The notes under the pieces: generated by a model
The model's database searches: none
Seen by the model: the letters and a program-made list of their open reading frames with translations, nothing else
Told to the model about the DNA's origin: nothing
Shown here: in pieces, positions 670 to 33,371 of the stretch
How positions within the stretch are numbered: position 1 is the stretch's first letter
How the letters are laid out: every line of letters starts with the position of its first letter
Program-made: the position numbers and the translations under genes
Assembly (NCBI RefSeq): GCF_001559775.1
Contig: NZ_LOHX01000289.1
Span: 1 to 33,664, forward strand
Direction of reading: 5' to 3'
Origin: Streptobacillus felis
Lineage (GTDB): Bacteria > Fusobacteriota > Fusobacteriia > Fusobacteriales > Leptotrichiaceae
DNA length: 33,664 bases

Positions 670-688
670 AAAAAATAGGGGGTATATT

Positions 689-1452: not shown

Positions 1453-1474
1453 ATATATATAAAAAGGAGGCAAA

Positions 1475-4387: not shown

Positions 4388-4403
4388 TTTAACGCTATTT
4401 ATT

Positions 4404-4439
4404 ATGGATACTTTCCTTAAAAGGAGGTATCCATTTTTA
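4404..4439 (+). terminator. Terminator after TAA1
   Basis: ATGGATACTTTCCTT (4404-4418) pairs with AAGGAGGTATCCAT (4421-4434), leaving one unpaired base, followed by TTTTAT. The rest of the 190-bp gap to TAA2 is AT-rich and holds only the TAA2 promoter. Confidence 0.85.
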
Positions 4440-4514
4440 TTTAAAATAAATTTTAAGAAAAGTATTAAAGAGTAAAGAAAATTTATTAAATATAAAAATA
4501 ACAAGTTAATATAG

Positions 4515-4544
4515 TTGACAAAAGTAAAAGTTTAAAGGTATAAT
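4515..4544 (+). promoter_or_regulatory. Promoter of TAA2
   Basis: Consensus TTGACA (4515-4520), an 18-bp spacer, and consensus TATAAT (4539-4544). The AGGAGG ribosome binding site is at 4569-4574 and the ATG at 4579. Confidence 0.75.
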
Positions 4545-4578
4545 TAAAATTAATTGAAACAAATAAATAGGAGGTAAA

Positions 4579-7500
4579 ATGAATAATTTAAATAAAGTTG
4601 TAAGAATTTTAAAATCAAATTTAAAAAATAAATTAAGTATCACAAAACAAACTATAATACTATTTTTAATGATGGGTATGTTAGGAATCTCAGAAGTAAT
4701 TTCAGATAATAACAAAGATAGTTTACACATAGGTACAGTTGCAAATAATGGAAGAAATAATATACTGGTAGGAGATGTAGCAACACCTGGAAATTATAGT
4801 ATAATATTTGCTACTAAAAATGGTGGTGGATGGCATGGAAATGGTAAGTATAAAATTGCATTTGGAGATGGTGTAAATGCTGATGGTGATGTAGAGTATG
4901 GAATAATATTTGGGAATGTTGCAGGACATGCTTTAAGTGGGAAATATAAGTTCATATTTGGAGAAGCAGCAGGATTTAGAAATAATGGAGAATATAATTT
5001 TGCATTTGGTAAAGCATCAGGAAGAGTAGTTAATGGAATCTATAATTTTGCTTTTGGAAATGAAGCTGGTCAAGATATAGCAGGAGGAAATAATATTTCC
5101 TTATTACAAGGTGCAGGATCTCAAACAAATGGTCATTTTAATATGGCTGTTGGATTCCAAGCAGGACAAATTACAAGAGGTAACTATAACTATGCTTTTG
5201 GTCCACAATCGGGGAAAAATACTACAGGAGATGAAAATATAGCAATAGGATCTCATGCAGGGAAAGATGTTTCTGGTAATGCTAACTATGCATTTGGACG
5301 TAGTGCAGGACAAAATGTATCTGGACTTGGAAATATAGCTTTTGGTGAAAATGCAGGTCAAAATGTAAAAGGGCTTCCTAATAATGAGATTTTAGGATAC
5401 TCAAATGTAGCAATAGGAAAAGAGTCTGGAAGAAATGTAATATCGAATCAAAGTTTAGCTTTAGGTTATAGAACAGGTGGACATGTAGGATATGTTACTT
5501 GGGATAATGCATCTAATGATTTTACAGCTAACCCGAGAGAGTATGTTAGAAATAGTGAAACTAATCCAAATGGGAATATTAAATCTGGTGCAGAGCATAA
5601 TACAGCAGTTGGAGCAAATTCTGGGAACTATATAGCAGGTCAAGATAATGTTGCTTTAGGAGAAGGTGCAGGAAACTATATAGATGGTCCAGAAGAAGGA
5701 GGAGCTGGAAATGTTGGTATAGGTAGAAAAGCGGGGAATAGAATTTATGGAAATGATAATATAGCTTTAGGAGCGAGTTCATCTAATAGAATTAAAGGAT
5801 CAAATAATATAGGAATAGGAACTTCAAGTTCAAATCAAGAAAGTTATTTAATTGAAAAGGAAAATACTATTTCTATGGGGACTTCTGCAGATTCTATAGC
5901 AAATAATGCTATATCAATAGGAACTAATGCAAAAACATTTAAAATAGATTCAATTACTATAGGTAAAGATTCACAAAATAGTGGAGAAAAAAGTATAATA
6001 GTAGGTTCAGAAAATACGATTACATCGGATAAATCAGGAATTTTTGGCTATAAAAATTATGTTTCATATAATCCAAACATACATGTAATAGGAAATAATA
6101 ATGGAGATTTTAATAACCAAATATCTGCACAAAATGGAGGAATCTTTGGAAATAACAATAAGTTACCAAATACAGCTATTAATAGCCGTATTATAGGAAA
6201 TAATAACGAGATTACAATAAATGATGGATTTATTGTAGGAAATGAATCAAAAATAAGTGGTAGTCATACAGTTGCTTTTGGTAATAATATTAATGCAAAA
6301 GAAAGCCAAAGTGTTTATTTAGGATTTAATTCAGATTTCAATTCAGATTCAACAAAAAGTGCAGGAAATACTACATACAGTAGCTATAATTTAACTGATA
6401 AAAATGGAGTAGTTAAGAAAACTTTTGATTTTGCAGCTCCAGTTCCTGTGGGAATTACAACTATAGGTTCAATAAAAAGTGAAAGAAGATTACAAAATGT
6501 AGCCGCAGGGTTAATAGGACCAAATTCAACTGATGCAATTAATGGATCGCAGCTTTATGCTTTAGCAGATTATGTAGCTAATTTAGAAAATCAAGTTAAT
6601 AATACAAGTCCAGTTAAGGTTGTTGATGGTAAAAACACATCAGTAACTACAGGAGATGATAAAGGGACAACAACTTATTCAGTTAATGTTAGTGGAGATT
6701 TAACTGAAATTACATCTATTTCAAATGAAGGAACTAAAATATCTTTAGAAGATGAAAATAAAGTGAATGTAAACGGGGCAACAATTACCAATGTATCGGC
6801 AGGAAAAGCTGATACAGATGCAGTAAATGTATCTCAATTAAATGAGTTAAAAACACAAATAAATAACAACAAAACTACAATAAATAATATAGAAAATAAA
6901 ATTTCTAAAACAGAACTTACAGTAGATAATGGTAAAGTTGTTAATTTAGATGATGAAAATAAAGATAAATTAGTTTCAGCAAATACAGTTAAAGATGCAA
7001 TAAATAATACTGGTTTCTTTATTAATTCAGATAGAACATTTGGTGAAAATATAGGAAGCAAGAAGACTCTAGTAAAAGCTGGAGAAGAAGTTAAATTAAT
7101 TGCAGGTAGAAATGTTACTATAAATCAAAGTGGGAAAAATTTTGAAATATCAATAGATAGACATTTAGCAACAGAATTTAATATAATTGGTGAAGATGGA
7201 ATAATAGCCGAAACTTCAACTGAAAATGGGAGAGATATTATTATTGTAAAATCAGATAAATCAGACATTATTTCAAAAAAGGGAGGAGAAGCTAAAACTA
7301 CAAAAGAGGATGGATTAGTTGACGCTAAAACTGTAGTTAATGCTATCAATGCTTTAGGAAATAACACTATTAGTCTTTCAGGAAATACTGGAAATACAGA
7401 TTCACAAAATTTAAATAAAGAAAATGGAATTACTTTTGGAATTAAAGGAAAAGGTTTAGTAACAACAGAAGCAAATGGAAATGAAATATTAATAGATTTA

Positions 7501-8016
7501 ACTGATGAAACAAAAGAAAAGATTAATAATATAGAAAAAGGAGCTAAATCAGCTTCAACTGCAGCTAATGCAGGAGTAGCAAGTGCAGTAGCAATGGCAA
7601 ACTTACCACAAGTAAGTAACATAGCAGGACATAGACATAATATTGCAGGAGCATATGGATACTATAACGGAGAACATGCATTTGCATTAGGATTATCAGG
7701 ATTAAATGAAACAGGAAACTTAGTATATAAGGCAAGTGGATCATTAAATACTAAAGGACATGTAGCATTAGGAGCAGGACTTGGATATCAATTTGACAAA
7801 TTAGAATCAAGAAGAAAAGATATGTTAACATTACAAAGAAATGGAAATATTAATTTACTTGATGAAAAGGTTTATGAATTAGATAAAGAAGTTAATGATT
7901 TAAAAACAAGTGTTAAGTATTTAGAAATGTCAAATAAGGAATTAAAAGAAGAAAATTTAAAATTAAATAATAGATTAGAAGAACTAGAAAATATAGTTAG
8001 AAAATCATTTAAATAA
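4579..8016 (+). CDS. Trimeric autotransporter adhesin TAA2 (YadA-like, type Vc)
   Basis: 1145 aa, the longest of the four. The N-terminus (KVVRILKSNLKNKLSITKQT, then ILFLMMGMLGISEV) matches the TAA1 signal region, but the mature start DNNKDSLHIGTVANNGRNN lacks the 'IPGxWxxTN' segment of the others. The head (about 55-640) has many YadA-type repeats ('YNFAFGKASGRVVNG') and a part rich in Asn and Ser (IGNNNEITINDGF). A first neck has TDAINGSQLY (651-660); a second has TNVSAGKADTDAVNVSQL (737-754). The stalk shares the TGFFINS...LVKAGEEVKLIAG module with TAA1. The anchor runs from about 999 to GLGYQF (F1072). A 73-residue tail follows, with heptads VYELDKE, VNDLKTS, VKYLEMS, NKELKEE. Predicted outer-membrane adhesin; the ligand is unknown. 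It is transcribed alone between a promoter and a terminator. Confidence 0.93.
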   Translation: MNNLNKVVRILKSNLKNKLSITKQTIILFLMMGMLGISEVISDNNKDSLHIGTVANNGRNNILVGDVATPGNYSIIFATKNGGGWHGNGKYKIAFGDGVNADGDVEYGIIFGNVAGHALSGKYKFIFGEAAGFRNNGEYNFAFGKASGRVVNGIYNFAFGNEAGQDIAGGNNISLLQGAGSQTNGHFNMAVGFQAGQITRGNYNYAFGPQSGKNTTGDENIAIGSHAGKDVSGNANYAFGRSAGQNVSGLGNIAFGENAGQNVKGLPNNEILGYSNVAIGKESGRNVISNQSLALGYRTGGHVGYVTWDNASNDFTANPREYVRNSETNPNGNIKSGAEHNTAVGANSGNYIAGQDNVALGEGAGNYIDGPEEGGAGNVGIGRKAGNRIYGNDNIALGASSSNRIKGSNNIGIGTSSSNQESYLIEKENTISMGTSADSIANNAISIGTNAKTFKIDSITIGKDSQNSGEKSIIVGSENTITSDKSGIFGYKNYVSYNPNIHVIGNNNGDFNNQISAQNGGIFGNNNKLPNTAINSRIIGNNNEITINDGFIVGNESKISGSHTVAFGNNINAKESQSVYLGFNSDFNSDSTKSAGNTTYSSYNLTDKNGVVKKTFDFAAPVPVGITTIGSIKSERRLQNVAAGLIGPNSTDAINGSQLYALADYVANLENQVNNTSPVKVVDGKNTSVTTGDDKGTTTYSVNVSGDLTEITSISNEGTKISLEDENKVNVNGATITNVSAGKADTDAVNVSQLNELKTQINNNKTTINNIENKISKTELTVDNGKVVNLDDENKDKLVSANTVKDAINNTGFFINSDRTFGENIGSKKTLVKAGEEVKLIAGRNVTINQSGKNFEISIDRHLATEFNIIGEDGIIAETSTENGRDIIIVKSDKSDIISKKGGEAKTTKEDGLVDAKTVVNAINALGNNTISLSGNTGNTDSQNLNKENGITFGIKGKGLVTTEANGNEILIDLTDETKEKINNIEKGAKSASTAANAGVASAVAMANLPQVSNIAGHRHNIAGAYGYYNGEHAFALGLSGLNETGNLVYKASGSLNTKGHVALGAGLGYQFDKLESRRKDMLTLQRNGNINLLDEKVYELDKEVNDLKTSVKYLEMSNKELKEENLKLNNRLEELENIVRKSFK
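7573..7883 (+). repeat. TAA anchor repeat, copy 2
   Basis: The anchor-coding block of TAA2. Its first 150 bp (AGTGCAGTAGCAATGGCAAA onward) match copies 3 and 4 almost base for base, including synonymous positions. Its end (gaaaaggtttatgaattaga) matches copy 1 instead. Confidence 0.9.
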
Positions 8017-8023
8017 ATTATAG

Positions 8024-8057
8024 TGGAGTAGATTTAAAAGTTTACTCCATTTTATTT
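8024..8057 (+). terminator. Terminator after TAA2
   Basis: TGGAGTA (8024-8030) pairs with TACTCCA (8043-8049) around a 12-nt loop, followed by TTTTATTTT. It begins 7 nt after the stop. Confidence 0.75.
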
Positions 8058-8086
8058 TCAAAATAAAAAATTAATAAAGAAAAATA

Positions 8087-8116
8087 TTGACAAATGTGTA
8101 AAAGAAATAATAAAAT
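8087..8116 (+). promoter_or_regulatory. Promoter of TAA3-TAA4
   Basis: TTGACA (8087-8092), an 18-bp spacer as for TAA1 and TAA2, and a -10-like TAAAAT (8111-8116). The -10 is weaker than in the other two. No promoter is seen before TAA4, so this should serve both genes. Confidence 0.6.
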
Positions 8117-8135
8117 ATATTAGAAAACAAAAAGA

Positions 8136-8178
8136 AAGGAGATGTATGATAAATAGTAACTAAGTCATACAAATATAA
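8136..8178 (+). promoter_or_regulatory. Displaced Shine-Dalgarno with bridging hairpin before TAA3
   Basis: The only good Shine-Dalgarno, AAGGAG (8136-8141), is 37 nt from the TAA3 ATG (8179), too far for direct use. TGTATGA (8143-8149) and TCATACA (8165-8171) form a 7-bp stem with a 15-nt loop exactly between them. Folding would leave 8 nt (one base plus 8172-8178) between Shine-Dalgarno and ATG, which is optimal. The Shine-Dalgarno also sits 4 nt before a five-codon ORF (ATG 8146, TAA 8161-8163), so re-initiation is an alternative. Confidence 0.5.
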
Positions 8179-11088
8179 ATGAAAATATCAAATAATTTAG
8201 AAAAAGTGATGAAGTCATATTTAAAAAGAAAAATAACTTTTAAGAAAGAAACAGTTATATTATTTTTAATGTTAGGTACATTTGCATTTTCTGGATATAA
8301 TAATGCTGCATTAAATTCAGGAATGAATCCAGATGTTATTCCAGGAAGTTGGATATTAACAAATGCAAAAGAAGAAACGGCTAAAACCATAGGTGGAGAT
8401 TCAAATATTGTATTAGGAAAAGAAGTTGGGGGTAATATTACTGGAAGGATGAACTTTATTTATGGTAATGATAAAGCAGGAGAAGGTACTACAGGAATAA
8501 ATAATATAATAATGGGTTCAGAAGCTGGTAAGAATACATCTGGACATAATAACGTTGCACTAGGAATTGGAGCTGGACAAAATGTATCAGGAATTAATAA
8601 CTTTGCTGCAGGTCCATCAGGTGCTGGAAAAGGAGTTACAGGATACTATAACATAGCATTAGGGACAGATAGTGGACAAAATGTAGGATATGCAGGAAGT
8701 GTTGCAGGCTTAGAATCTTCTAATGGAAATACTGGTATGGGTAGAAATAACATAGCCATAGGTAAAAATGCAGGAAATGGAGTGCAAGGAAATGAAAATA
8801 TTGCCATTGGTTCAAATGTTGGAGAAAATGTTGGTTCTAAGGCAACTAGTAATTCTGTAGGTATATATAACGTTGCTATAGGAAAAGAAACTGGGAACAA
8901 TGTACAAGGAACTTCAAATGTTTCATTAGGAAAGGGTTCAGGAAACAATGTTGAAGGTTCATATAATTTTATTGCAGGACTTAATGCAGGAAATGGCACT
9001 AAAGGTTCTCATAATATAATAATGGGGAACAAAGCTGGAGAATTAGGTACAGTAGAAGTTAGTGAAACTATTTCAATAGGTACTGAAACTAAGGCAACAA
9101 AAAATAATGTAACAGCAATAGGGTATAAAGCTCAAGCTTTAGAAGAAAAAACCATAGCATTAGGTGGTAATTCTATTGCAGATGTTGCAAATAGTATTGC
9201 ATTAGGTGATAATAGTAAAACAGAAGGAACTTCAAGCAATAGAACAAAAGGAACAGATACGAGTTATACAAAAGATGTAGTGGAAAATAAATTAAATTTA
9301 TCTTTTGCTGGAGGAGATCAAATAATAGGAGTTTTAAGTGTTGGAAATGAAAATGAAACAAGACGTATACAAAATGTTGCACCTGGTTTAATTTCAGAAA
9401 ACTCAACAGATGCTGTTAATGGTTCACAACTTTATGCTTTAGCAAAGGAAGTAGCTAACTTAAGTAATACAAGTGGAGTTGCAAATAATAATATAAAATT
9501 AGGTGGAGATACTGGAGAAACTGAAGCTCAAAATCTTGACAAAGAAAATGGAATAAAATTTGATATTAAAGGTGTCACAAAAGATGGAGTTACGTATATA
9601 GTCACTAAAGCAATGGGAGATAGAGTAGAAATTGATTTATCTGAGGAGACAAAAAATAAATTAAATATTCAAAATTATTTTCATGTTAATACAGGAGATC
9701 CTAACCAACCATTAGGATCAGATTCAAATTTAGGAACAATAGATTCTATAGGTGCAGCAAAAGGGAAGCATTCTCTTTCAGCTGGATATAGAGCATCATC
9801 TTTTGGAATAAATTCAGTCGCAGTCGGTACAGAAGCAGCATCAAATGGACAATATGGTGTAGCGATAGGACACTATTCACTAGTTGGTGAAAATTCAAGC
9901 AGCTCTATTTCAATAGGTAGTGGATCAGTTTCTGATGAAGGTGGGTCAATAGCTATAGGTAAAGAAGCTAAAGCGATGTTTGACAATGCAATTTCAATGG
10001 GGTCTAATGCGGAATCTAAAGCTATAAATTCTATATCAATAGGTTCAAATTCAGTAGCAGAAACAGAAGAATCTATAGCATTAGGTCCAGATGCAAAAGC
10101 AATAGGATTAAAGGCAGTTTCTTTAGGAGATAAAGCCATAGCAGATATAGACTTGTCAGTAGCTTTAGGTTCAAATTCTAAAACAACAGAAGCAGTAGCT
10201 GTAAATGATGCTACAGTTGGTGGATTAACTTATTCTGGATTTGCAGGTAATGAACCATCTTCAGTAGTTTCAGTGGGGAATAAAGAAGAAGGACAATATC
10301 GTCAGATTCAATATGTAGCAGCGGGGCAAATAAATAAAGATTCTACAGATGCAATAAATGGTTCACAGCTTTATGCAACAAATCTTGCATTAAGTAATTT
10401 AACAAAATCTGTTAAAGATATTTTAGGAGGAAATGCTAAAATAACTGAAACAGGAGATAATATAGGGAATATAACTATTACAAATATAGGAAATACAGGT
10501 AAAGATAATATACATGATGCAATTATTGCTTCAAAAACAGAAGTGAGATCAGGAGATGGTTCTCCAATTAAAGTTGAAAAAACTATAGATGATGTTGATA
10601 GCCACCCAATTTATACTTTGGATTTAGATGAAAAAACTAAGGAAAAATTAGAGAAATTAGAAAAATTAAGTTTTGATTCAAGTTCTGGTGTAGCAAATGC
10701 AGTAGCAATGGCAAACTTACCACAAGTAAGTAACATAGCAGGACATAGACATAATATTGCAGGAGCATATGGATACTATAACGGAGAACATGCATTTGCA
10801 TTAGGATTATCAGGATTAAATGAAACAGGAAACTTAGTATATAAGGCAAGTGGATCATTAAATACTAAAGGACATGTTGCACTTGGAGCAGGACTTGGAT
10901 ATCAATTTGACAAATTAGAATCAAGAAAAAAAGATATGTTAACATTACAAAGAAATGGAAATATTAACTTACTTGATGAAAAAGTTTATGAGCATGAAAT
11001 TGAAATAGAGAGCTTAGAAAAATTAAATAAAGAATTACTTGAAAAAGTAGAAAAATTAGAAAAAATGATTCAAAAACTAGAAAAATAA
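8179..11088 (+). CDS. Trimeric autotransporter adhesin TAA3 (two-headed, YadA-like)
   Basis: 969 aa. The signal peptide again has a long basic front (KVMKSYLKRKITFKKET), cut near GTFAFS. The mature start GYNNAAL...IPGSWILTN closely follows TAA1. The first head (about 60-340) is of ~15-aa repeats, then a neck with TDAVNGSQLY (410-419). A module ending VEIDLSEETKNKL leads to a second head starting YFHVNTGDPNQPLGSDSN, with 'SVAVGTEAAS / GVAIGHYS / SISIGSGS' repeats, and a second neck with TDAINGSQLY (723-732). The stalk is short, and the anchor runs from about 837 to GLGYQF (F910). The 59-residue tail has coiled-coil heptads (IESLEKL, NKELLEK, VEKLEKM). The ATG at 8179 is chosen because it starts the conserved signal region and an in-frame TAA precedes it directly; it lacks a normally spaced ribosome binding site (separate entry). 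Confidence 0.92.
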   Translation: MKISNNLEKVMKSYLKRKITFKKETVILFLMLGTFAFSGYNNAALNSGMNPDVIPGSWILTNAKEETAKTIGGDSNIVLGKEVGGNITGRMNFIYGNDKAGEGTTGINNIIMGSEAGKNTSGHNNVALGIGAGQNVSGINNFAAGPSGAGKGVTGYYNIALGTDSGQNVGYAGSVAGLESSNGNTGMGRNNIAIGKNAGNGVQGNENIAIGSNVGENVGSKATSNSVGIYNVAIGKETGNNVQGTSNVSLGKGSGNNVEGSYNFIAGLNAGNGTKGSHNIIMGNKAGELGTVEVSETISIGTETKATKNNVTAIGYKAQALEEKTIALGGNSIADVANSIALGDNSKTEGTSSNRTKGTDTSYTKDVVENKLNLSFAGGDQIIGVLSVGNENETRRIQNVAPGLISENSTDAVNGSQLYALAKEVANLSNTSGVANNNIKLGGDTGETEAQNLDKENGIKFDIKGVTKDGVTYIVTKAMGDRVEIDLSEETKNKLNIQNYFHVNTGDPNQPLGSDSNLGTIDSIGAAKGKHSLSAGYRASSFGINSVAVGTEAASNGQYGVAIGHYSLVGENSSSSISIGSGSVSDEGGSIAIGKEAKAMFDNAISMGSNAESKAINSISIGSNSVAETEESIALGPDAKAIGLKAVSLGDKAIADIDLSVALGSNSKTTEAVAVNDATVGGLTYSGFAGNEPSSVVSVGNKEEGQYRQIQYVAAGQINKDSTDAINGSQLYATNLALSNLTKSVKDILGGNAKITETGDNIGNITITNIGNTGKDNIHDAIIASKTEVRSGDGSPIKVEKTIDDVDSHPIYTLDLDEKTKEKLEKLEKLSFDSSSGVANAVAMANLPQVSNIAGHRHNIAGAYGYYNGEHAFALGLSGLNETGNLVYKASGSLNTKGHVALGAGLGYQFDKLESRKKDMLTLQRNGNINLLDEKVYEHEIEIESLEKLNKELLEKVEKLEKMIQKLEK
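10687..10992 (+). repeat. TAA anchor repeat, copy 3
   Basis: The anchor-coding block of TAA3. It matches copies 2 and 4 through most of its length. GVANAVAMANLPQ replaces GVASAVAMANLPQ, and the linker has RKKD instead of RRKD. The sequence diverges straight after KVYE. Confidence 0.9.
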
Positions 11089-11101
11089 TACGAGGAGAAA
11101 A

Positions 11102-13939
11102 ATGAAAAAAAATAATATAAAAAATAAAATTATAAATCCTATGTTAATTGTTTTTGCTATGGGAGTCATTGGATTTATATCTGAAAATTCATATGCTGGT
11201 TCAAATAATTATGCTATGCCAACATGGATATCACGTAATAATATACCTGGAAATTGGGTTATTACTAATACAGAGCCAGAAATTGCTTATTCTATAAGAG
11301 GAGATAACCATATATCATTTGGTAGATGGTCTGGTAATAATATATCGGGTAATAATAATTTTATTGCAGGACAAAATGGAGCAGGTAGAAATACTTCAGG
11401 AAATAGTAATATTATAATGGGGCAAGAAGCAGGAGTAGATACTACAGGAAATAGTAATATTGCATTAGGAGATAGAGCAGGAAAAGAAGTTTCAGGGAAT
11501 AATAACTTTTCTGGAGGTCCATTTGGTTCAGGAAATAGAGTTACAGGAAACAATAATATAGCTTTAGGAAATCAATCAGGTATAGCAGTTGGATATAAGG
11601 GTAATGATCCTGAATTATTAGATAAAATGGGAAACTATAACGTTGGAATAGGAAGATTAGCAGGAAATGATGTACAGGGTAGCGAAAACTATTCAATAGG
11701 TGCAAGGGTTGGAAGTAATGTAAACTCTACTGGTAATGTAGCAATAGGAGTTGAAAGTGGAAACAATGTACAAGGAAATGACAATATTTCATTAGGTGGT
11801 AATAATGGAAATAATGTTTCAGGTTCAAACAACTTTGTATCTGGAGGAGGTTCTGGACATAACATTAAGGGTTCTAATAATATAGTATTAGGTCATGATG
11901 CAGGTAATATAAATCAATTAACAGCTAATGATACAGTTTCTATAGGTAGATCAACAAAAGCTGAAAAAGATAATGTTACAACTTTAGGATATGGAGCAAA
12001 AGCAAAAGAAGATAAAACATTAGCTTTAGGAAATTCTACAGCAGATGTAATAAATAGTGTCTCTATAGGAGATGGTAGTAAAACAAATTCTTCAATAAGT
12101 AATAGAACAAAAGGAAACGACAATAGCTATACAACTGATACTATAGATGATAAAAGCTACACTTTTGCTGGAGGAGATCAAGTAATAGGAGTAGTAAGTA
12201 TAGGAAATGAAAATGAAACAAGACGTATACAAAATGTTGCACCTGGATTAATTTCAAAAAACTCAACAGATGCAATTAATGGTTCACAACTATATTCTTT
12301 AGCAGAAAAAGTTGCTAACTATAATTCCACAGGAGGTGTAGGAGACAATACAGTTAAAATTGGTGGGGATAATAAAACATTAACTAATTCTCAAAAATTA
12401 AGTAAAACAGGTGGAATTAAATTTGACATTGTTAAGTCAGAAAATAATTCATATATAGTTACAAAAGCAAGTAATAATAGAGTAGAAATAGATTTAACAG
12501 AAGAAGCAAAAGATAAAATAGAAAAAAACACATATTTTCATGTTAATACTGGAGATGCAGATCAAGAGGAAGGAGATTCTGTAACTAATTATGGAAGTTC
12601 TAGCTCTAAGGCTGGAGCATTAGCGAATCATTCTTTAACAGCAGGAATAGAAGTGGTATCTAATTCAGAAAATGGTGTTGCAATAGGTAGGGACATAACA
12701 TCTTTTGGTAGAGAAACGATTGCTATTGGAGATCAAGTTATTGTAAAAAAAGATACAGTTTCTTCAATAGGTATAGGGAAACAAGCTGTTATAGATGGAA
12801 AAGAAAGTATTGCAATTGGAGTTATATCGAATTCACAAAAAGATTATGGAATTTCTTTAGGGAATTATTCTAGGGCAAATGAAGTTAGAACGATAGCCAT
12901 AGGAAATGTTTCGCGTTCAGAATACGAAGGAACAGTCACTTTAGGAAAGTATTCTATTTCATATTCAGAAGGTTCGACTAATATTGGAGCTTTTACAATT
13001 AGTACAATTAATAAGTCTATATCTCTTGGAGCTGAAAGTATGGCTGTTGAAGCAGTTTCCGTAAATGAAGCTAGTATAGGTTCACTAACTTATGGAGGTT
13101 TTGCAGGTAATACTCCTTACTCATCATTTGCTATTGGATCTATACAAAATACACGTCAAATGCAAAATGTAGCTGCAGGACAAATTAATAAAAAAAGTAC
13201 AGATGCAATAAATGGATCTCAGCTTTATGCAACGAATAATGCTTTAGGTAATTTAACAAATGCAACTAAAACATTTTTAGGAGGAAACTCAATATTTGAA
13301 AAAGATGGGGATAATATAGCTAAATTTAATATGGATAATATAGGTGAAACAGATAAGGATAATATAAATGATGCTATTTCAGCTTCAATTACAGAAGTAA
13401 GAGTTGCTGAAGGATCGTTAATGCATATTGATAAAACAATAGCAGATGATGGGCATCATATTTATACAGTGGATTTTAATTCAAAAATTAGAGAGAATAT
13501 AAAAAAATTAGAAGATGCAGGACAAAATATAAATGCAGGAGTAGCAAGTGCAGTAGCAATGGCAAACTTACCACAAGTAAGTAACATAGCAGGACATAGA
13601 CATAATATTGCAGGAGCATATGGATACTATAACGGAGAACATGCATTTGCACTGGGATTATCAGGATTAAATGAAACAGGAAACTTAGTATATAAGGCAA
13701 GTGGATCACTTAATACTAAAGGTCATGTTGCACTTGGAGCAGGACTTGGATATCAATTTGATAAATTAGAATCAAGAAGAAAAGATATGTTAACATTACA
13801 AAGAAATGGAAATATTAATTTACTTGATGAAAAAGTTTATCAACAAAATATTAGGTTGACAAATTTAAGAAATTCAAGTTTAGCACTGTTAGATAAATTA
13901 AACTTTTTAGAAAATAAAATTGAAAAATTAATGAAATAA
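11102..13939 (+). CDS. Trimeric autotransporter adhesin TAA4 (two-headed, YadA-like)
   Basis: 945 aa, 13 nt after TAA3 and preceded by CGAGGAG, so very likely co-transcribed with it. It has an ordinary signal peptide (MKKNNIKNKIINPMLIVFAM..., cut near ENSYA) without the long basic front of TAA1-3. The mature start keeps the shared YAMPTW...IPGNWVITN. The first head (about 60-320) and neck with TDAINGSQLY (389-398) are followed by a YFHVNTGDADQEEGDS linker, a second head of 'GVAIGRDITS / TIAIGDQVIV' type repeats, and a second neck with TDAINGSQLY (700-709). The anchor runs from about 813 to GLGYQF (F886). The 59-residue tail has heptads (LTNLRNS, SLALLDK, LNFLENK). The architecture parallels TAA3, suggesting tandem duplication and divergence. 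Confidence 0.92.
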   Translation: MKKNNIKNKIINPMLIVFAMGVIGFISENSYAGSNNYAMPTWISRNNIPGNWVITNTEPEIAYSIRGDNHISFGRWSGNNISGNNNFIAGQNGAGRNTSGNSNIIMGQEAGVDTTGNSNIALGDRAGKEVSGNNNFSGGPFGSGNRVTGNNNIALGNQSGIAVGYKGNDPELLDKMGNYNVGIGRLAGNDVQGSENYSIGARVGSNVNSTGNVAIGVESGNNVQGNDNISLGGNNGNNVSGSNNFVSGGGSGHNIKGSNNIVLGHDAGNINQLTANDTVSIGRSTKAEKDNVTTLGYGAKAKEDKTLALGNSTADVINSVSIGDGSKTNSSISNRTKGNDNSYTTDTIDDKSYTFAGGDQVIGVVSIGNENETRRIQNVAPGLISKNSTDAINGSQLYSLAEKVANYNSTGGVGDNTVKIGGDNKTLTNSQKLSKTGGIKFDIVKSENNSYIVTKASNNRVEIDLTEEAKDKIEKNTYFHVNTGDADQEEGDSVTNYGSSSSKAGALANHSLTAGIEVVSNSENGVAIGRDITSFGRETIAIGDQVIVKKDTVSSIGIGKQAVIDGKESIAIGVISNSQKDYGISLGNYSRANEVRTIAIGNVSRSEYEGTVTLGKYSISYSEGSTNIGAFTISTINKSISLGAESMAVEAVSVNEASIGSLTYGGFAGNTPYSSFAIGSIQNTRQMQNVAAGQINKKSTDAINGSQLYATNNALGNLTNATKTFLGGNSIFEKDGDNIAKFNMDNIGETDKDNINDAISASITEVRVAEGSLMHIDKTIADDGHHIYTVDFNSKIRENIKKLEDAGQNINAGVASAVAMANLPQVSNIAGHRHNIAGAYGYYNGEHAFALGLSGLNETGNLVYKASGSLNTKGHVALGAGLGYQFDKLESRRKDMLTLQRNGNINLLDEKVYQQNIRLTNLRNSSLALLDKLNFLENKIEKLMK
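13538..13840 (+). repeat. TAA anchor repeat, copy 4
   Basis: The anchor-coding block of TAA4. Its first half matches copies 2 and 3. From GGATCACTTAATACTAAAGG onward its synonymous choices match copy 1. It looks like a mosaic. Confidence 0.9.
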
Positions 13940-26172: not shown

Positions 26173-26505
26173 ATGTGTATGAAAGAAATAGAAGAATATA
26201 TAAAGTACTCAATACTATTCATATATTACAAGGAACTTTTTTCTGATAAACAGAAAAAGTACTTATCTGCATATTTAGAGGAGGATAATTCATTAACAGA
26301 AATAGCAGAAGCTTTTAATGTAAGTAGACAGGCAGTTTTCGATAACATTAAAAGAGGATGTAAACAGCTAGATAAATATGAAAGTTTACTTGGAGTTATG
26401 GAAAGAGAAGAGAATATAATAATTAATTTGAAATGGTTAAGAGATAATTTCTCAAAAGAAAATTTAGATAAAATGATTAGAGAATACGAAGAAGGTGTAA
26501 ATTAA
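26173..26505 (+). CDS. ylxM: YlxM/p13-like HTH protein, SRP-associated
   Basis: 110 aa. It matches the YlxM family: LFSDKQKKYLSAYLEEDNSL ('lLt.kq..y...yy.eDlSl') followed by TEIAEAFNVSRQAVFDNIKR ('.EIAe...vSRQaV.D.ikr'). The helix-turn-helix is about residues 38-58, with a helical C-terminus. YlxM sits beside ffh in many bacteria and interacts with the signal recognition particle in streptococci. The start is ATG at 26173 or 26179; neither has a Shine-Dalgarno, unlike nearly all other genes here (see promoter entry). The stop overlaps the ffh start (TAATG). Confidence 0.88.
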   Translation: MCMKEIEEYIKYSILFIYYKELFSDKQKKYLSAYLEEDNSLTEIAEAFNVSRQAVFDNIKRGCKQLDKYESLLGVMEREENIIINLKWLRDNFSKENLDKMIREYEEGVN

Positions 26506-27836
26506 TGTTTAAAGGCTTAAGTGATAAATTACAGGAAACTTTTAAAAAGTTATCTGGTCAAAGTAAGATTACAGAAAGTAATATTACTGAGGCATTAAGA
26601 GAAGTAAGACTTGCTTTACTTGAAGCAGATGTTAACTACACAGTAGTTAAGAACTTTGTTTCAAGAATTAAAGAAAAAGCACAAGGACAAGAAGTAATTA
26701 AAGGAGTAAATCCAAGACAACAATTTATAAAAATAATAAATGATGAATTAGTAGAAGTTTTAGGTGGTCAAAATACTGCCTTAAATAAAGCTCAGAGTAA
26801 ACCAACTATAATTATGTTAGCAGGTTTACAAGGGGCAGGTAAAACTACCTTTGCAGGTAAATTATCAAAATTACTAAAAAAAGAAAAAGCAAAACCATTT
26901 TTAATAGGAGCTGACGTATATAGACCTGCAGCTAAAAAACAATTAATGGTACTTGCAAATCAAATAGGAGTTCCTTTCTATACTATAGAAGATAGTCAAA
27001 ATGTATTAGAAATAGTTGAAAATGGATTATTAGAAGCAAAAAAAGAATCAGCAGACTATGTATTAATAGATACTGCAGGTAGATTACATATAGATGAAAA
27101 TCTTATGAAGGAATTACAGGATGTTAAAGCTAAAGTAAATCCAACAGAAATACTATTAGTAGTAGATGGTATGACAGGACAAGATGCTGTAAATGTTGCA
27201 AAGACATTTAATGATAGTTTAGATATTACAGGAGTAGTTGTAACTAAACTTGATGGAGATACACGTGGAGGAGCTGCTCTTTCTATTAAAGAAATATCAG
27301 GTAAACCTATTAAATATATTTCTGAAGGTGAAAAACTTGATGATATATCAGTTTTCCATCCTGAAAGACTTGCAAGTAGAATACTTGGTATGGGAGATGT
27401 AGTTTCTTTGGTTGAAAAAGCTAAAGACGCTATAGATGAAAAAGAAGCACGTGAAATGGAAGCAAAATTTAGAAAAAATCAATTTGATTTTGAAGACTTC
27501 CTAAAACAATTCAAAATGATTAAAAGAATGGGATCATTAGGTGGAATACTAAAAATGTTACCAGGTATGGGTGCCATAGGTGAAATAGACTTAAATGGTG
27601 CAGAAAAAGAAATGAAAAAAGTAGAAGCAATAATATATTCTATGACACTAGAGGAAAGAAGAAATCCTAACTTATTAAAAGTTGGAAGTAGAAAAGTTAG
27701 AATTGCTAAAGGATCTGGTACTGATGTAACACAGGTTAATAAATTACTTAAGCAATTTGAACAAATGAAACAAATGATGAAAATGTTTAATTCTGGTAAC
27801 ATACCAGGATTTGGGCAAATAGGTAGAAAAAGATAA
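26505..27836 (+). CDS. ffh: Signal recognition particle protein Ffh (SRP54)
   Basis: 443 aa. The N domain (1-~85) has 'SKITESNITEALREVRLALLEADV'-type helices. The G domain has the P-loop GLQGAGKTT (107-115), DVYRPAAKKQL, DTAGRLH (189-195), and TKLDGDTRGGAAL. The M domain (from about 295, GMGDVVSLVEKA) has MLPGMG, ERRNPNLL and the RNA-binding helix-turn with SGTDVTQVNKLLKQFEQMKQ, followed by Met-rich MMKMF. Ffh with 4.5S RNA delivers ribosomes making membrane and secreted proteins to FtsY, a GTP-dependent step. The 4.5S RNA gene is not in this window. Start overlap with ylxM implies coupling. Confidence 0.97.
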   Translation: MFKGLSDKLQETFKKLSGQSKITESNITEALREVRLALLEADVNYTVVKNFVSRIKEKAQGQEVIKGVNPRQQFIKIINDELVEVLGGQNTALNKAQSKPTIIMLAGLQGAGKTTFAGKLSKLLKKEKAKPFLIGADVYRPAAKKQLMVLANQIGVPFYTIEDSQNVLEIVENGLLEAKKESADYVLIDTAGRLHIDENLMKELQDVKAKVNPTEILLVVDGMTGQDAVNVAKTFNDSLDITGVVVTKLDGDTRGGAALSIKEISGKPIKYISEGEKLDDISVFHPERLASRILGMGDVVSLVEKAKDAIDEKEAREMEAKFRKNQFDFEDFLKQFKMIKRMGSLGGILKMLPGMGAIGEIDLNGAEKEMKKVEAIIYSMTLEERRNPNLLKVGSRKVRIAKGSGTDVTQVNKLLKQFEQMKQMMKMFNSGNIPGFGQIGRKR

Positions 27837-27865: not shown

Positions 27866-30346
27866 ATGTTCTTACAGAAATCAGATAGATTGGCTTTAGT
27901 CGATTCTAAAGGAAATAAAGTAAGTCATAGTAAATTGGTTGATAATGTTAAATATTTTTCAAAATTTGTAGTAAAAGATACAAAAAATATACAAAATTTT
28001 AATATTATAATGATGGAAAATAGAAAGGAATGGGTATATACTTTCTATGCAATTTGGGATAAAAAGAATATCCCATTAGTAATAGATTCAGAATCTAGTA
28101 TAGATGAAATAATATATTTCATCAAAGATTCGGATGCAACCAGTATCTATGTTTCTAATAAAAGCTATGGTAAGGCTAAAGAAGCAATAGATATTTTGAA
28201 TAAAGAGATGACAATAGTAAATATTGATAGTGTAGTTATAGATGAAAATAAACTAAATGAGCTCTCTAGGGATGATAGTATTTTAAAACATCCAGAAGGA
28301 GAAGAATTAGCTATAATGCTATATACTTCTGGTACTACAGGAAATCCTAAAGGAGTAATGTTAACTTTTAATAATATAGAAGCTCAGATAGAATCTATAA
28401 AATCATTAATGATAACAGAAGAAAATGAACAGGTACTGTGTGGACTACCTTTTCATCATATACTTCCATTAATGACTACCAACTTATTATTCATGCATTA
28501 TAGCAATCAATTTTCTATGGTATTTATAGACAAGCTTTCAAGTCAAGATATTTTAAAAGCGTTAAAAGAAAATGATGTAACTATATTATCTATGGTTCCA
28601 AGGGTATATAAGATGTTTTATAGCTCAATAAAAAGTAAGATAGATTCTAAAGTTACAACAAAACACCTATTTAAACTAGTTCAAAGAGCCAATAATATTA
28701 GGTTTTCAAGAAGAGTATTTAAGAAAATTCATGAATTATTCGGTGGTAAATTAACTAGGGTAATATCAGGTGGAGCTAAAACAGATAAAGAAATAGCAGA
28801 TTTTTTCGATACTATAGGTATAGAATATTTTGAAGGCTATGGTTTAAGTGAAACTTCCCCGGTTATAGCATGTTCAACAACAAAACATGGGAAGAAAAAT
28901 GGTACCGTAGGTAAAAAAGTAGATAATATAGAAGTTAAATTAGTAGATGAAGAACTTTGGGTAAAAGGGCCTATAGTTATGAAGGGATACTATAACAAAC
29001 CTGAAGAAACTGCTAAAGTCATAACTGAGGATGGGTGGTTTAAAACAGGTGATTTAGCAGAAATAGATGAAGAAGGATACATAACTATTAAGGGTAGAAA
29101 AAACTCTATGATAGTTTTATCTAATGGGAAAAATATAGATCCTGAAAAACTTGAAGATAGATTATTAGAATATTCATATGAAATTATTAAAGAAGTAGGA
29201 ATTTTTGCAAAAAATGACAAACTTGTAGCTTTAATAGTTATAGATAATAGAAAAGTAAAAGAAAAAAACATTACAAATATTAAATCATACATAGATGATG
29301 CAATATCTTTCTATAACGCTAAATCTCATGGTTATGAAAAGATATTGGAATATAAGATGACAGAAACGGAACTACCTAAAACACGTATAGGTAAGTTAAA
29401 AAGATTTATGTTAAAAGATATATATCTTGGACAAAATCAAAATGAAAAAAAGGAAAAAATAGAAGAACCAGATATGTTAGAATATAGGGTTCTTAAAGAA
29501 TATATATATAATATGAAAAATGAATATCCAGAACCTGATATGAATTTAGAGATAGAGTTTGGTTTAGATTCATTAGATCAGGTAGAATTACTTTCTTTTA
29601 TTGAAAGAAGTTTTGGAACAAAATTAACTGATGAGGAATTTAAAGAAAATATTAGTTTAATAAGTCTAGCTAAACTTGTTAAAAGTAAATCCGATAGTTT
29701 TGTAGAAACAAAGGATCAATGGAAAGATATAATAGAACACGCCCCTATCAAAAAACTTGACAGTGGTAAAGGTATTAGAATACTTAGACCTTTAGGATGG
29801 TTAATATTTAAGATATACTTTAGACTAAGTATTAAAGGTAAGGAAAATATATTAGATGAACCACAGATATTCATTGCTAATCATGCTAGTTTTATAGATG
29901 CTCTGGCACTAAATTTACTATTACCAAGAAAAGTAGCTAAAAAAACTTATTCTTTAGCTATAGATTGGTACTTTAAGAATAAATTGATGAAAAAATTTGC
30001 CAAAGAAACTAATGTAGTTTTATTAGATATTGATGGCAATATTAAAGAAAGTATTGAAGAAATTGCATCAATATTAAAACAAGGGAAGAATGTATTCATA
30101 TTCCCAGAAGGTACAAGAACTAAAGATGGAACTTTATCATCATTTAAAAAAACTTTTGCTATAATCTCAAAAGAAATGAATGTAAAAGTAACTTGTTTAA
30201 AAATAGATGGAGCTTTTGAAGCTTATTCAAGATATGATAAATTTCCAAAACCTAAGAAAATAACAGTTAGTTATTTAGGTGTAGTTAATCCGGATAATTT
30301 AAGTTATGAGGAAATAGTTAGTAAATCAAGAGATATGTATAACTAG
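27866..30346 (+). CDS. Acyl-CoA/ACP synthetase-ACP-PlsC fusion protein, copy A
   Basis: 826 aa, three domains. (1) AMP-forming acyl-acid synthetase, about 1-520: P-loop LYTSGTTGNPKGVML (152-166), GYGLSETSP, WFKTGDLAEIDEEGYITIKG, and the C-terminal lysine motif LPKTRIGK. (2) Acyl carrier domain, about 540-610: FGLDSLDQVELL with phosphopantetheine Ser569. (3) PlsC-type acyltransferase, about 650-826: NHASFID (H673, D678) and FPEGTRTKDG (746-755). It probably activates a fatty acid, loads it on the built-in carrier and transfers it to a lysophospholipid or glycerol phosphate; that sequence is inferred. E. coli Aas has related synthetase and acyltransferase parts in the opposite order and no carrier. 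AGGAGGAG precedes the ATG; the gene is 29 nt after ffh and probably in its operon. Confidence 0.85.
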   Translation: MFLQKSDRLALVDSKGNKVSHSKLVDNVKYFSKFVVKDTKNIQNFNIIMMENRKEWVYTFYAIWDKKNIPLVIDSESSIDEIIYFIKDSDATSIYVSNKSYGKAKEAIDILNKEMTIVNIDSVVIDENKLNELSRDDSILKHPEGEELAIMLYTSGTTGNPKGVMLTFNNIEAQIESIKSLMITEENEQVLCGLPFHHILPLMTTNLLFMHYSNQFSMVFIDKLSSQDILKALKENDVTILSMVPRVYKMFYSSIKSKIDSKVTTKHLFKLVQRANNIRFSRRVFKKIHELFGGKLTRVISGGAKTDKEIADFFDTIGIEYFEGYGLSETSPVIACSTTKHGKKNGTVGKKVDNIEVKLVDEELWVKGPIVMKGYYNKPEETAKVITEDGWFKTGDLAEIDEEGYITIKGRKNSMIVLSNGKNIDPEKLEDRLLEYSYEIIKEVGIFAKNDKLVALIVIDNRKVKEKNITNIKSYIDDAISFYNAKSHGYEKILEYKMTETELPKTRIGKLKRFMLKDIYLGQNQNEKKEKIEEPDMLEYRVLKEYIYNMKNEYPEPDMNLEIEFGLDSLDQVELLSFIERSFGTKLTDEEFKENISLISLAKLVKSKSDSFVETKDQWKDIIEHAPIKKLDSGKGIRILRPLGWLIFKIYFRLSIKGKENILDEPQIFIANHASFIDALALNLLLPRKVAKKTYSLAIDWYFKNKLMKKFAKETNVVLLDIDGNIKESIEEIASILKQGKNVFIFPEGTRTKDGTLSSFKKTFAIISKEMNVKVTCLKIDGAFEAYSRYDKFPKPKKITVSYLGVVNPDNLSYEEIVSKSRDMYN

Positions 30347-30395
30347 TTATATATATAGGGGGATTAAAATTTAAGAGGAAGAAAGGAAAAAGACA

Positions 30396-32885
30396 ATGTT
30401 TTTAAATAAATCTGATAGACTTGCGATAGTAGATTTTGATGGTACAAAAATTAGTCATACACAATTAGTAAATACTATTAAATACTACTCGAAATATGTA
30501 GTTACTGAAAGGCCTCCAAAGACTTTTAGTGTAATAATGATGGAAAATAGAACAGAATGGTTCTATGCTTTTTATTCATTATGGGATAAACATTTAGTCC
30601 CTGTTACTGTTGACGCTATGTCAACTAAAGAAGAAGTAGAATACTTCTTAAATGACTCGGGTGCATCTTGTATGTATGTTTCTAAGAATACTTATGAAGT
30701 TGCAAAAGCAGCAGTAGATGCAACTGGGAGAGATATACAGATATTTAATGTTGATGATGTATCTATTGATAAAACTATTTTATCAGATATTGAAAGAGAT
30801 GATAGAGTTCTTAATCATCCTGAAATGGACGAAGTAGCTATAATGCTATATACTTCAGGTACTACAGGAGCACCTAAAGGAGTAATGTTATCATTTGGAA
30901 ACATTTATCATGAAATAAGAGCTATAAGAAGTTTAGATATTACATGGGATGATGAACAAACATTAGCGGTACTTCCATTCCATCATATATTACCACTTAT
31001 GGCAACTAACCTTTACTATTTATATCATGAACATCAATATTCAGTTGTATTAGTAGAAAAGCTATCTAGCCAAAATATTTTAGCTGCACTTGCCAAGAAT
31101 GATGTAACTATGTTATCTATGGTTCCAAGAGTATATAAATTATTCTATAAGTCTATTAAAGATACTATAGATTCAAAATGGATAACAAGAGCTATATATT
31201 CATTAGCTAAGAAATTAAATAATAAGAAATTTTCAAAATTTGTATTTAAGAAAGTACACGATAAATTTGGAGGAAAATTAAGAAGTTTAATTGCTGGAGG
31301 AGCTAAATCTGATGTTGAAATTATAGAATTTTTCAATGTATTAGGTTTTGATTATTGTGAAGGTTATGGTTTAACAGAAACATCACCAGTACTTGCTGGA
31401 GGAACTCCAAATCATGGATATAAGGTAGGGACAGTTGGACTACCAGTAGATAATGTTGAAGTTAAAGTAGTAGATGGAGAATTATGGGTTAAAGGGCCTA
31501 TAGTTATGATGGGTTACTACAATAAACCTGAAAAAACAGCAGAAGTAATTACTGAAGATGGATGGTTCAAAACAGGAGATATGGTTGATGTTGATGACAA
31601 TGGATACATTACTATAGTTGGACGTAAAAATGCCATGATAGTTTTATCTAATGGTAAAAATATAGATCCTGAAACATTAGAAATTAAATTTATGTCTTCA
31701 ACTAACCCTATAATAAAAGAAGTTGGAATATTAGGTCATAATGATAAATTAGCAGCATTAATAGTAATAGATAGAAAAGAAGCTAAAAAATTAAATATTT
31801 CAAATATCAATGCACATATTAAAGATGCAGTTGAATTTTATAACGGCTCTGTTCATAATTATGAAAAAATATTAGATTACAAAGTTACAGAAGAAGAATT
31901 GCCTAAAACACGTATAGGAAAAGTAAGAAGATTTATGTTAAAAGATGTATATTCTGGAGAAGCTAAGGTTGAGAAAAAAGAAGTAGTAAATGAGCCTGAT
32001 AGTGAAGAATACAGAATACTTAAAGAATATATCTATAAAATGAAGGGAGAATATCCTGAAGTAGATAAAAATCTAGAGGTTGAATTTGGTCTAGATTCAT
32101 TAGATCAAGTTGAATTACTTACATTTATTGAAAATAGCTTTGGTATAAAAATGTCAGAGGATGAGTTTAAAGAAAACCTAACATTAATAGGATTAACTAA
32201 ATATATTTCTGAAAAATCATCAGGATATACAGAAATGACAGATCAATGGAAAGAAGTAGTACAAAATGCTCCTAAAACAGAGTTAAAAGATGGTTGGTTA
32301 ATGTTATTACTTAAACCTTTATTCTTCCTATTATTCAAACTATACTTTAGAATAGATATTAAAGGTATGGATAAGATTAATAAAGAACAACAAATATTTA
32401 TAGCAAATCATGAAAGTTTTGTAGATGGATTAGCACTTAGCTTATTAATACCTAATGATGTATTTGAGAAAACATATACTTTAGCTATAAATTGGTATTT
32501 CAAGAATGCATTTATGAAATTCTTTGCTAAACACAGTAATATACTATTATTAGACATAGATAGAAATATTAAAGGTACTATAGAAAATGTAGCTTCTGCT
32601 TTAAAACAAGGGAAGAATATATTCATATTCCCTGAAGGAACAAGAACTAAAGATGGTAAATTAGGTCAATTTAAGAAAATATTTGCTATCTTATCAAAAG
32701 AATTAAATATACCAGTAACTTGTTTAAAAATAGATGGAGCTTTTGAAGCTTACTCTAGATACGACAAATTACCTAAACCTAGAAAAATAGGTGTTAAATA
32801 TTTAGGACAAATAAGACCTGGAGATTTATCTTATACAGAAATACTAGAAAAAGCACAAAATATGTATAAAGAAGACGAGAAATAA
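30396..32885 (+). CDS. Acyl-CoA/ACP synthetase-ACP-PlsC fusion protein, copy B
   Basis: 829 aa, a full-length paralogue of the preceding gene with the same domain order. The synthetase has LYTSGTTGAPKGVML (about 151-165), GYGLTETSP, WFKTGDMVDVDDNGYITIVG and LPKTRIGK. The carrier domain has FGLDSLDQVELL (Ser568). The acyltransferase has NHESFVD (H672, D677) and FPEGTRTKDG (745-754). All catalytic motifs are intact in both copies, so neither looks degenerate. They may differ in acyl chain or acceptor. A stretch LMLLLKPLFFLLFKLYF before the PlsC domain could dip into the membrane; copy A has a less hydrophobic counterpart. AGGAAGAAAGG precedes the ATG, 49 nt after copy A, with no promoter recognised in the gap. 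A terminator closes the unit. Confidence 0.85.
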   Translation: MFLNKSDRLAIVDFDGTKISHTQLVNTIKYYSKYVVTERPPKTFSVIMMENRTEWFYAFYSLWDKHLVPVTVDAMSTKEEVEYFLNDSGASCMYVSKNTYEVAKAAVDATGRDIQIFNVDDVSIDKTILSDIERDDRVLNHPEMDEVAIMLYTSGTTGAPKGVMLSFGNIYHEIRAIRSLDITWDDEQTLAVLPFHHILPLMATNLYYLYHEHQYSVVLVEKLSSQNILAALAKNDVTMLSMVPRVYKLFYKSIKDTIDSKWITRAIYSLAKKLNNKKFSKFVFKKVHDKFGGKLRSLIAGGAKSDVEIIEFFNVLGFDYCEGYGLTETSPVLAGGTPNHGYKVGTVGLPVDNVEVKVVDGELWVKGPIVMMGYYNKPEKTAEVITEDGWFKTGDMVDVDDNGYITIVGRKNAMIVLSNGKNIDPETLEIKFMSSTNPIIKEVGILGHNDKLAALIVIDRKEAKKLNISNINAHIKDAVEFYNGSVHNYEKILDYKVTEEELPKTRIGKVRRFMLKDVYSGEAKVEKKEVVNEPDSEEYRILKEYIYKMKGEYPEVDKNLEVEFGLDSLDQVELLTFIENSFGIKMSEDEFKENLTLIGLTKYISEKSSGYTEMTDQWKEVVQNAPKTELKDGWLMLLLKPLFFLLFKLYFRIDIKGMDKINKEQQIFIANHESFVDGLALSLLIPNDVFEKTYTLAINWYFKNAFMKFFAKHSNILLLDIDRNIKGTIENVASALKQGKNIFIFPEGTRTKDGKLGQFKKIFAILSKELNIPVTCLKIDGAFEAYSRYDKLPKPRKIGVKYLGQIRPGDLSYTEILEKAQNMYKEDEK

Positions 32886-33015: not shown

Positions 33016-33371
33016 ATAAGAAACACGCATTAAAACTAACTTTTCTAACATTTTTAACTACATTTTTTTCATATGCAAACATAACAGTAGATGGAAAAAC
33101 AAATGTATATGTAGAAAAGAGTAATAATGGTGTAGATATCATAAATATTTCAACTCCAAGTCCTAAAGGTGTAAGTCATTCAACCTTTAAAGAATTTAAT
33201 GTAAGTGAAAAAGGTGCTGTAATAAATAATGCAAAAAATATTGCAAGAAGTAGAATAGCTGGATTAATAAATGGAAATAATAATATAAAAGACACAAGAG
33301 CAAAACTTGCACTTCTAGATGTAACAGGATTAGAAGAAAGTAAACTAAAATTAAATAGAGGTCTAAAATGA
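33016..33371 (+). pseudogene. Truncated two-partner-secretion (FHA-type) exoprotein, start codon lost
   Basis: An open frame from 33018 to the TGA at 33369-33371 codes for a signal peptide (KKHALKLTFLTFLTTFFSYA once the start is restored). The beginning of a TPS domain follows: ITVDGKTNVYVEKSNNGVDI, PKGVSHSTFKEFNVSEKG, and GLINGNNNIK...AKLALLDVTG. FHA-type exoproteins pass through a TpsB pore and are usually very large; this one stops after about 95 mature residues. No ATG, GTG or TTG exists in frame. At the right distance after AGGAGGA the sequence reads ATAAGAAACAC, where ATGAAGAAACAC would be expected, suggesting loss of one G. Promoter and ribosome binding site remain. A sequencing error at one base is possible, but the early stop is independent of it. 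Confidence 0.7.

Follow-up and report, generated by a model that had tools for sequence, protein, structure and literature searches.

What does a bacterium gain by joining a fatty acid synthetase, an acyl carrier and an acyltransferase in a single chain, and by keeping two such genes side by side? The question is raised by a 33,664-nucleotide stretch of the Streptobacillus felis genome (NZ_LOHX01000289.1, forward strand; hereafter the window, in whose positions coordinates are given), which contains two adjacent genes of this type, copies 1 and 2 (Table 1). The original prediction for this locus described the products as self-loading enzymes that pass activated acyl groups to a lysophospholipid without free acyl-acyl carrier protein (acyl-ACP), took the two intact copies to imply distinct chain or acceptor choices, and proposed a search for the architecture by phylum. 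The best explanation, and judging from the sequences a fairly probable one, is that the fusions are self-loading acyltransferases supplying the PlsC step of phospholipid synthesis on scavenged host fatty acids, in an organism apparently without type II fatty acid synthesis (FASII).

Both copies are complete, uninterrupted open reading frames (ORFs) on the same strand, separated by 49 bases, and their products are 61% identical across 825 aligned positions (BLASTP). The domain order in each is AMP-binding, AMP-binding_C_3, PP-binding and PF01553; all four domains exceed the curated Pfam cut-offs, with PP-binding scores of 29.1 (copy 1) and 27.9 bits (copy 2) against a cut-off of 20.8. The adenylation motif YTSGTTG, the catalytic Lys (510 in copy 1, 509 in copy 2), the serine of the carrier DSL motif, the H..D pair of the acyltransferase (673..678 and 672..677) and its EGTR motif are all intact. 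The adenylation domain has intact A3, A5 and A7 motifs together with the A10 Lys, as in AMP-forming acyl-ACP synthetases and fatty acyl-coenzyme A (CoA) ligases, and the C-terminal domain is a PF01553 acyltransferase with intact HX4D and EGTR. Helix II of the carrier is ACP-like (DSLDQVEL), with 22 and 23 of 73 positions as in free ACP. The predicted architecture—two adjacent, intact genes, each combining a synthetase, a carrier with its Ser (Ser569 and Ser568, as originally placed) and an acyltransferase—is thus borne out by Pfam. The closest named match to copy 2 is from Streptobacillus notomytis (79%), and the best 60 of its 177 sequence matches among solved structures all fall within the synthetase part.

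The architecture recurs through Fusobacteriota, which rules out a peculiarity of the window's genome. A search of 98 Fusobacteriota genomes with PF01553 gave matches in all 98; among the matches listed, many lie in ORFs of ~800–860 amino acids (aa) and others in ORFs of ~250 aa. Forty stretches (two of which are not fusion loci) plus locus L003 yielded 57 full-length fusions, of which 55, from 36 genomes, were kept; the two from L003 were dropped as repeats of L142. No substitution occurs among the 55 at the carrier Ser, at the synthetase (A10) Lys or at the H and D of HX4D, a conservation of catalytic residues that is far beyond chance. Because the set was picked by ORF length (about 800 aa or more), broken copies lie outside it. 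One such fusion seems to occur in the Leptotrichia-type genome G075, where a 205-aa ORF contains the carrier and another of 51 aa a portion of the acyltransferase; this genome keeps a stand-alone PlsC and a ketosynthase (KS), and so the broken fusion fits dispensability there. Nor, by this search, is the fusion universal in the phylum, since the single PF01553 match of G064, among the matches listed, is in a 261-aa ORF. A scan of other phyla with six peptide patterns from one query, which is no real survey of those phyla, returned 72 loci, one of them from Streptobacillus (L003); the other 71 contain no ORF of at least 150 aa joining a synthetase with a carrier or acyltransferase, as judged by hidden Markov models (HMMs) built from the fusions.

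What the fusions might do is suggested by what surrounds them in the genome. We surveyed 33 genomes of the family, including four of Streptobacillus and 13 of Leptotrichia type (genus group g6, G069–G081), with KS (PF02801) and FabH (PF08541) as the only proxies for FASII and PF01553 as the only proxy for PlsC. The window's genome (99.97% complete) gives just two PF01553 matches, both in copies 1 and 2, and the other three Streptobacillus genomes give two each, both in fusion-length ORFs. A stand-alone PlsC of 248–275 aa (E < 1e-28) is found in 23 of the 33 genomes; those with fusions only are the four Streptobacillus genomes, G065, G083, G084, G092, G093 and G068. Weak extra PF01553 matches, in ORFs of 216–245 aa, were seen in 17 genomes, each of them KS-positive and none fusion-only. 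KS was matched in 24 genomes, and the nine without a match (including all four of Streptobacillus) are exactly the fusion-only set minus G068; FabH scores over its cut-off in the same 24, and in none of the same nine. Put together, a stand-alone PlsC is present in 0/9 KS-less versus 23/24 KS-positive family genomes. By these proxies, de novo fatty acid synthesis appears to be lacking in the Streptobacillus genome. Across the phylum, KS is found in 86 of the 98 genomes, the misses outside the family being G001 (0.8 Mb) and the incomplete genomes G046 and G059.

As candidates for FabH in the window's genome, two weak PF08541 matches below the cut-off were considered and rejected: the genes that contain them form a cluster whose sequences read as mevalonate enzymes (thiolase, HMG-CoA synthase, HMG-CoA reductase).

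The remaining phospholipid genes are compatible with a membrane supplied from outside. PlsY, AcpS (PF01648) and CdsA are each found in 33/33 family genomes, and DegV/FakB in 32/33, in ORFs of 827–858 aa. In the window's genome this ORF (locus L138, G000:C253, positions 1454–3937, minus strand) joins FakA and FakB in one chain of 827 aa, with three FakA domains (Dak2, FakA-like_M, FakA-like_C) followed by the DegV domain at the C-terminal end; the FakA part was checked in this genome only. A paper on S. aureus FakA has one passage on a laboratory domain fusion. The exception in the family, G065, has no DegV/FakB, PlsX or KS match, but PlsY is present.

On these grounds, we propose the following mechanism. 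The N-terminal domain, from its family, would adenylate a free fatty acid with ATP; the acyl group would then pass to a phosphopantetheine arm on Ser569 or Ser568 of the built-in carrier (the genome encodes AcpS), and the C-terminal PF01553 domain would move it to a lysophospholipid, most likely converting lysophosphatidate to phosphatidate. All of these steps could take place on one protein or dimer. That the fusions are self-loading synthetase-carrier-acyltransferases is highly probable from their domain make-up, and the attached carrier suggests ACP, not CoA, as the acyl acceptor of the synthetase. In Streptobacillus, the full pathway would run from scavenged host fatty acid to acyl phosphate (one-chain FakA-FakB), via PlsY to lysophosphatidate, via the fusions to phosphatidate, and on to CdsA. 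Since PlsY and CdsA are present and no other PF01553 protein is, lysophosphatidate is at least as likely an acceptor as an Aas-like repair substrate. The self-loading part of the original prediction thus remains the best-supported account; its lysophospholipid wording, which suggests an Aas-like repair enzyme, calls for correction, as does the phrase "without free acyl-ACP", given that a free ACP is encoded.

How do the fusions relate to known systems? Like E. coli Aas, they combine an acyl-activating synthetase and a PF01553-type acyltransferase in one chain, and fusion-derived HMMs hit the synthetase and the acyltransferase half of Aas alike. The difference in order and content that had been predicted is upheld: the fusions run synthetase-carrier-acyltransferase, whereas in E. 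coli Aas the acyltransferase (residues 9–153) precedes the synthetase (after residue 362), and Aas gives no carrier match. With the Aas model PRK08043, the fusions score 134.1 and 116.3 bits against a cut-off of 886. Full-length PRK08633 (cut-off 1221) is the best NCBIfam match of copy 1 (217 bits) and the second-best of copy 2 (191 bits). PRK08633 and PRK06814 stand for LplT-Aas fusions; such proteins differ from ours in having a transporter domain, in lacking the carrier, and in domain order. PlsC shares the acyltransferase domain with its HX4D and EGTR motifs, which here is joined to a synthetase and a carrier. AasS of Vibrio harveyi and others, according to PMC11271967, catalyzes what is presumably the same reaction (fatty acid + ATP + ACP to acyl-ACP); AasS is a stand-alone enzyme of 533 aa that passes acyl-ACP to other enzymes, while the fusions have carrier and acyltransferase attached. 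Finally, the Gram-positive FakA/FakB–PlsX–PlsY–PlsC pathway has PlsY and a fatty acid kinase in common with the window's genome, which differs in lacking both a PlsX match and a stand-alone PlsC, in having FakA and FakB in one chain, and in that the PlsC step presumably sits in the fusion. The parts, and the pairing of synthetase and acyltransferase in Aas, are known; what seems new, relative to the literature found, is the domain order, the carrier within the chain, and the absence of any other PF01553 protein. Among the titles and abstract openings listed from the open-licence PMC literature, none describes this architecture or the loss of fatty acid synthesis in Streptobacillus.

The history of the pair was read from two trees, a quick one of all 55 fusions and a careful one of 25 rows. 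Both place the two Streptobacillus copies as sisters (Shimodaira-Hasegawa-like approximate likelihood ratio test 96 in the quick tree; support 98/96 in the careful tree), and thus the tandem pair originated inside the Streptobacillus lineage, ahead of the divergence of its four genomes. Family f2 of the same order (probably Fusobacteriaceae) has tandem pairs as well; most of them belong to two separate groups in the quick tree, and their duplication is therefore independent of the Streptobacillus one. Elsewhere, the two copies of G083 group with the single copy of G084, and G065 carries a second, very divergent fusion (L145); G084, G092 and G093 are single-copy relatives. Ratios of nonsynonymous to synonymous substitution (dN/dS, or omega), calculated for the window's genome against each of the three other Streptobacillus genomes, are 0.11–0.12 for the whole of copy 1, 0.15–0.18 for the whole of copy 2, and 0.06–0.15 for the carrier domain. 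Both Streptobacillus copies are under purifying selection, the carrier domain included; their retention is therefore real.

Could the fusions be Aas-like repair or salvage enzymes, re-acylating lysophospholipids (endogenous or from host serum) with scavenged fatty acids, rather than the main-pathway PlsC? We regard this as unlikely, although several observations favour it. Besides the synthetase-acyltransferase pairing common to Aas, there are the scores of the acyltransferase domains, which also weigh against the explanation given above: their best match is PRK08633, a model of Aas type (84 and 67 bits), while with the PlsC model TIGR00530 they give 61.8 and 57.2 bits, below its cut-off of 102.95; as controls, the stand-alone PlsC of a Leptotrichia-type genome (L096) and E. 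coli PlsC reach 116.5 and 173.6 bits. In a tree of acyltransferase domains with E. coli Aas and PlsC, the fusions separate from the stand-alone PlsCs; the rows nearest to E. coli Aas are fusions and those nearest to E. coli PlsC are stand-alone PlsCs, but both E. coli rows sit on long branches, making these placements unreliable, and so the tree does not settle PlsC versus Aas. Against a repair role stands the genomic setting: with PlsY and CdsA present, and no other PF01553 protein in any of the four Streptobacillus genomes, the step from lysophosphatidate to phosphatidate must have an enzyme. Also, lplT abuts aas in E. coli, whereas nothing LplT-like was recognised among the ORFs listed beside the fusions (for which no family search of neighbours was made). 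On balance, we think it somewhat probable that the fusions would act as the main-pathway PlsC in Streptobacillus.

A different objection concerns the carrier, which might not be a working donor: the synthetase could make acyl-ACP on free ACP, or acyl-CoA, leaving the built-in domain merely to dock or regulate. The window's genome does encode a free ACP, adjoining a gene that reads as rnc, such that the synthetase could load it instead; this, too, counts against our explanation. A precedent for the objection is E. coli Aas, which acts through acyl-ACP with no carrier domain of its own (PMC11271967). The carrier Ser retained in every full-length copy, the low carrier-domain dN/dS and the ACP-like helix II all argue for a functional carrier, and we judge one that only docks or regulates improbable. 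As for the two copies having split roles, with different chain lengths or acceptors, we find the idea doubtful. In its favour are the retention of both copies in 4/4 Streptobacillus genomes, 118 fixed differences between them in 829 positions, and faster evolution of the adenylation domain in copy 2 (omega 0.16–0.21, versus 0.08–0.10 in copy 1). The fixed differences are, however, spread evenly over the domains (13–15% in each), the duplication is a genus-level event with single-copy relatives, and dosage accounts for retention equally well. Two copies by themselves do not imply distinct choices of chain or acceptor.

Returning to self-loading acyltransferases in the PlsC step, a number of further observations weigh against this reading or narrow it. 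G068 (88% complete) has KS and FabH yet no stand-alone PlsC; outside the family, G016 and G017 keep KS, and both PF01553 matches of each, among the matches listed, are in fusion ORFs. That fusions apparently suffice in G016 and G017 speaks for the reading, yet the link between FASII loss and fusion-only status is thus not strict. The nine FASII-less genomes come from a single family, and most of their fusions form one group (99 in the quick tree; 62/99 in the careful tree, which is not firm, one row being very long); they probably represent one loss, not nine. PlsX is over its cut-off in 5/33 family genomes, one of which is the FASII-less G084. It has no match in the four Streptobacillus genomes and none in 13/13 Leptotrichia-type genomes, which are FASII-positive, and so its absence says nothing about FASII. 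The proposed pathway fails in FASII-less G065, which has no DegV match. Lastly, an AlphaFold2 model (four-sequence alignment) reached a mean predicted local distance difference test score of 39.5 and a predicted TM score of 0.26, and was not used.

The 13 Leptotrichia-type genomes present a puzzle of their own, in that KS and FabH are present in all of them alongside the missing PlsX. Possibly, their endogenous acyl chains are first released as free fatty acid and then reach PlsY by way of the fatty acid kinase.

Host serum, rather than anaerobic bacterial synthesis, is the typical source of oleic (w9), linoleic and arachidonic acids; iso-C15:0 is not an obvious serum acid. A 2024 review (PMC11609424) gives C16:0, C18:0 and C18:1w9c (the last at 12–25%) as the chief fatty acids in five species of Streptobacillus, with C20:4 (arachidonic) in three of the five, linoleic acid also reported, and a little C17:0 in every one of them and iso-C15:0 in two. 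This is a largely host-like set, and on the whole chemistry and genomic prediction agree. S. moniliformis requires blood, serum or ascitic fluid (PMC3035246). Both the published fatty acids and the need for serum are as expected if the membrane is assembled from fatty acids of the host. For Sneathia, the Sneathia amnii genome paper gives S. sanguinegens as reportedly needing blood and S. amnii as not needing it, with growth improved by human serum; the term "fatty acid" does not occur in the main text of that paper.

Several other features of the window were recorded. The ORF upstream of copy 1 reads like ffh (putative signal recognition particle GTPase); a match to it is also found at L003, L141, L142 and L143, which represent the three further Streptobacillus genomes (L003 and L142 being on the same contig). 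A scan for promoters and terminators returned sites no commoner than in shuffled sequence. The hydrophobic stretch directly ahead of the copy 2 acyltransferase is a possible membrane contact; the top hydropathy window of copy 1 sits elsewhere. Further upstream, at 1475–13939, lie four tandem ORFs of 970, 1145, 969 and 945 aa, with a YadA stalk and anchor in the two that were scanned. Their C-terminal 95-aa regions are identical at 92–94 of 95 positions in all pairs, although the lengths of the ORFs vary and their other parts look different by eye; the YadA-type anchor may have undergone gene conversion. Downstream, a 117-codon stretch without a start codon (33018–33368) matches the first 75 of 252 positions of the TPS secretion domain, and looks like the remnant of a two-partner-secreted protein.

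Table 1. Positions of the two fusion genes, their domains and the upstream neighbour in the window.
Feature	Position	Strand	Basis
Copy 1, synthetase-carrier-acyltransferase fusion, 826 aa	27866..30346	+	ORF, four Pfam domains
Copy 1 AMP-binding (adenylation), residues 5-376	27878..28993	+	PF00501 E 4.2e-56
Copy 1 AMP-binding C-terminal domain (AMP-binding_C_3), residues 414-513, catalytic Lys510	29105..29404	+	PF23562
Copy 1 acyl carrier domain, residues 556-604; Ser569 at 29570-29572	29531..29677	+	PF00550 E 1.2e-6
Copy 1 acyltransferase, residues 654-775, motifs NHASFID and FPEGTR	29825..30190	+	PF01553 E 6.9e-20
Copy 2, synthetase-carrier-acyltransferase fusion, 829 aa	30396..32885	+	ORF, Pfam, BLASTP
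Copy 2 AMP-binding domain, residues 5-375	30408..31520	+	PF00501 E 3.7e-58
Copy 2 AMP-binding C-terminal domain, residues 414-520, Lys509	31635..31955	+	PF23562
Copy 2 acyl carrier domain, residues 556-604; Ser568 at 32097-32099	32061..32207	+	PF00550 E 2.8e-6
Copy 2 hydrophobic stretch, residues 635-653, directly ahead of acyltransferase	32298..32354	+	Top 19-residue hydropathy of protein
Copy 2 acyltransferase, residues 652-775, motifs NHESFVD and FPEGTR	32349..32720	+	PF01553 E 4.7e-18
Upstream neighbour ORF	26505..27836	+	ORF; ends 29 bp before copy 1

Taken at its widest, the analysis raises the prospect, to which we give an even chance, that Fusobacteriota have their own kind of phosphatidate-forming, self-loading PlsC, which would be the sole PlsC in Streptobacillus and its FASII-less relatives and would be paired (except in G065) with an apparently one-chain FakA-FakB for the first acyl chain. 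With the fusion as the only PlsC in FASII-less genomes, the second phospholipid acyl chain would come from the host through the fusion. If true, this would explain the long-known serum requirement of the rat-bite-fever bacteria and their membranes of oleic, linoleic and arachidonic acids, and would describe a membrane pathway in which the acyl groups of the second chain need not pass via free acyl-ACP or acyl-CoA. The fusions would also probably be essential in bacteria that should be insensitive to FASII inhibitors, and would offer a one-protein system for direct tests of carrier-mediated hand-over from an activating to a transferring domain.

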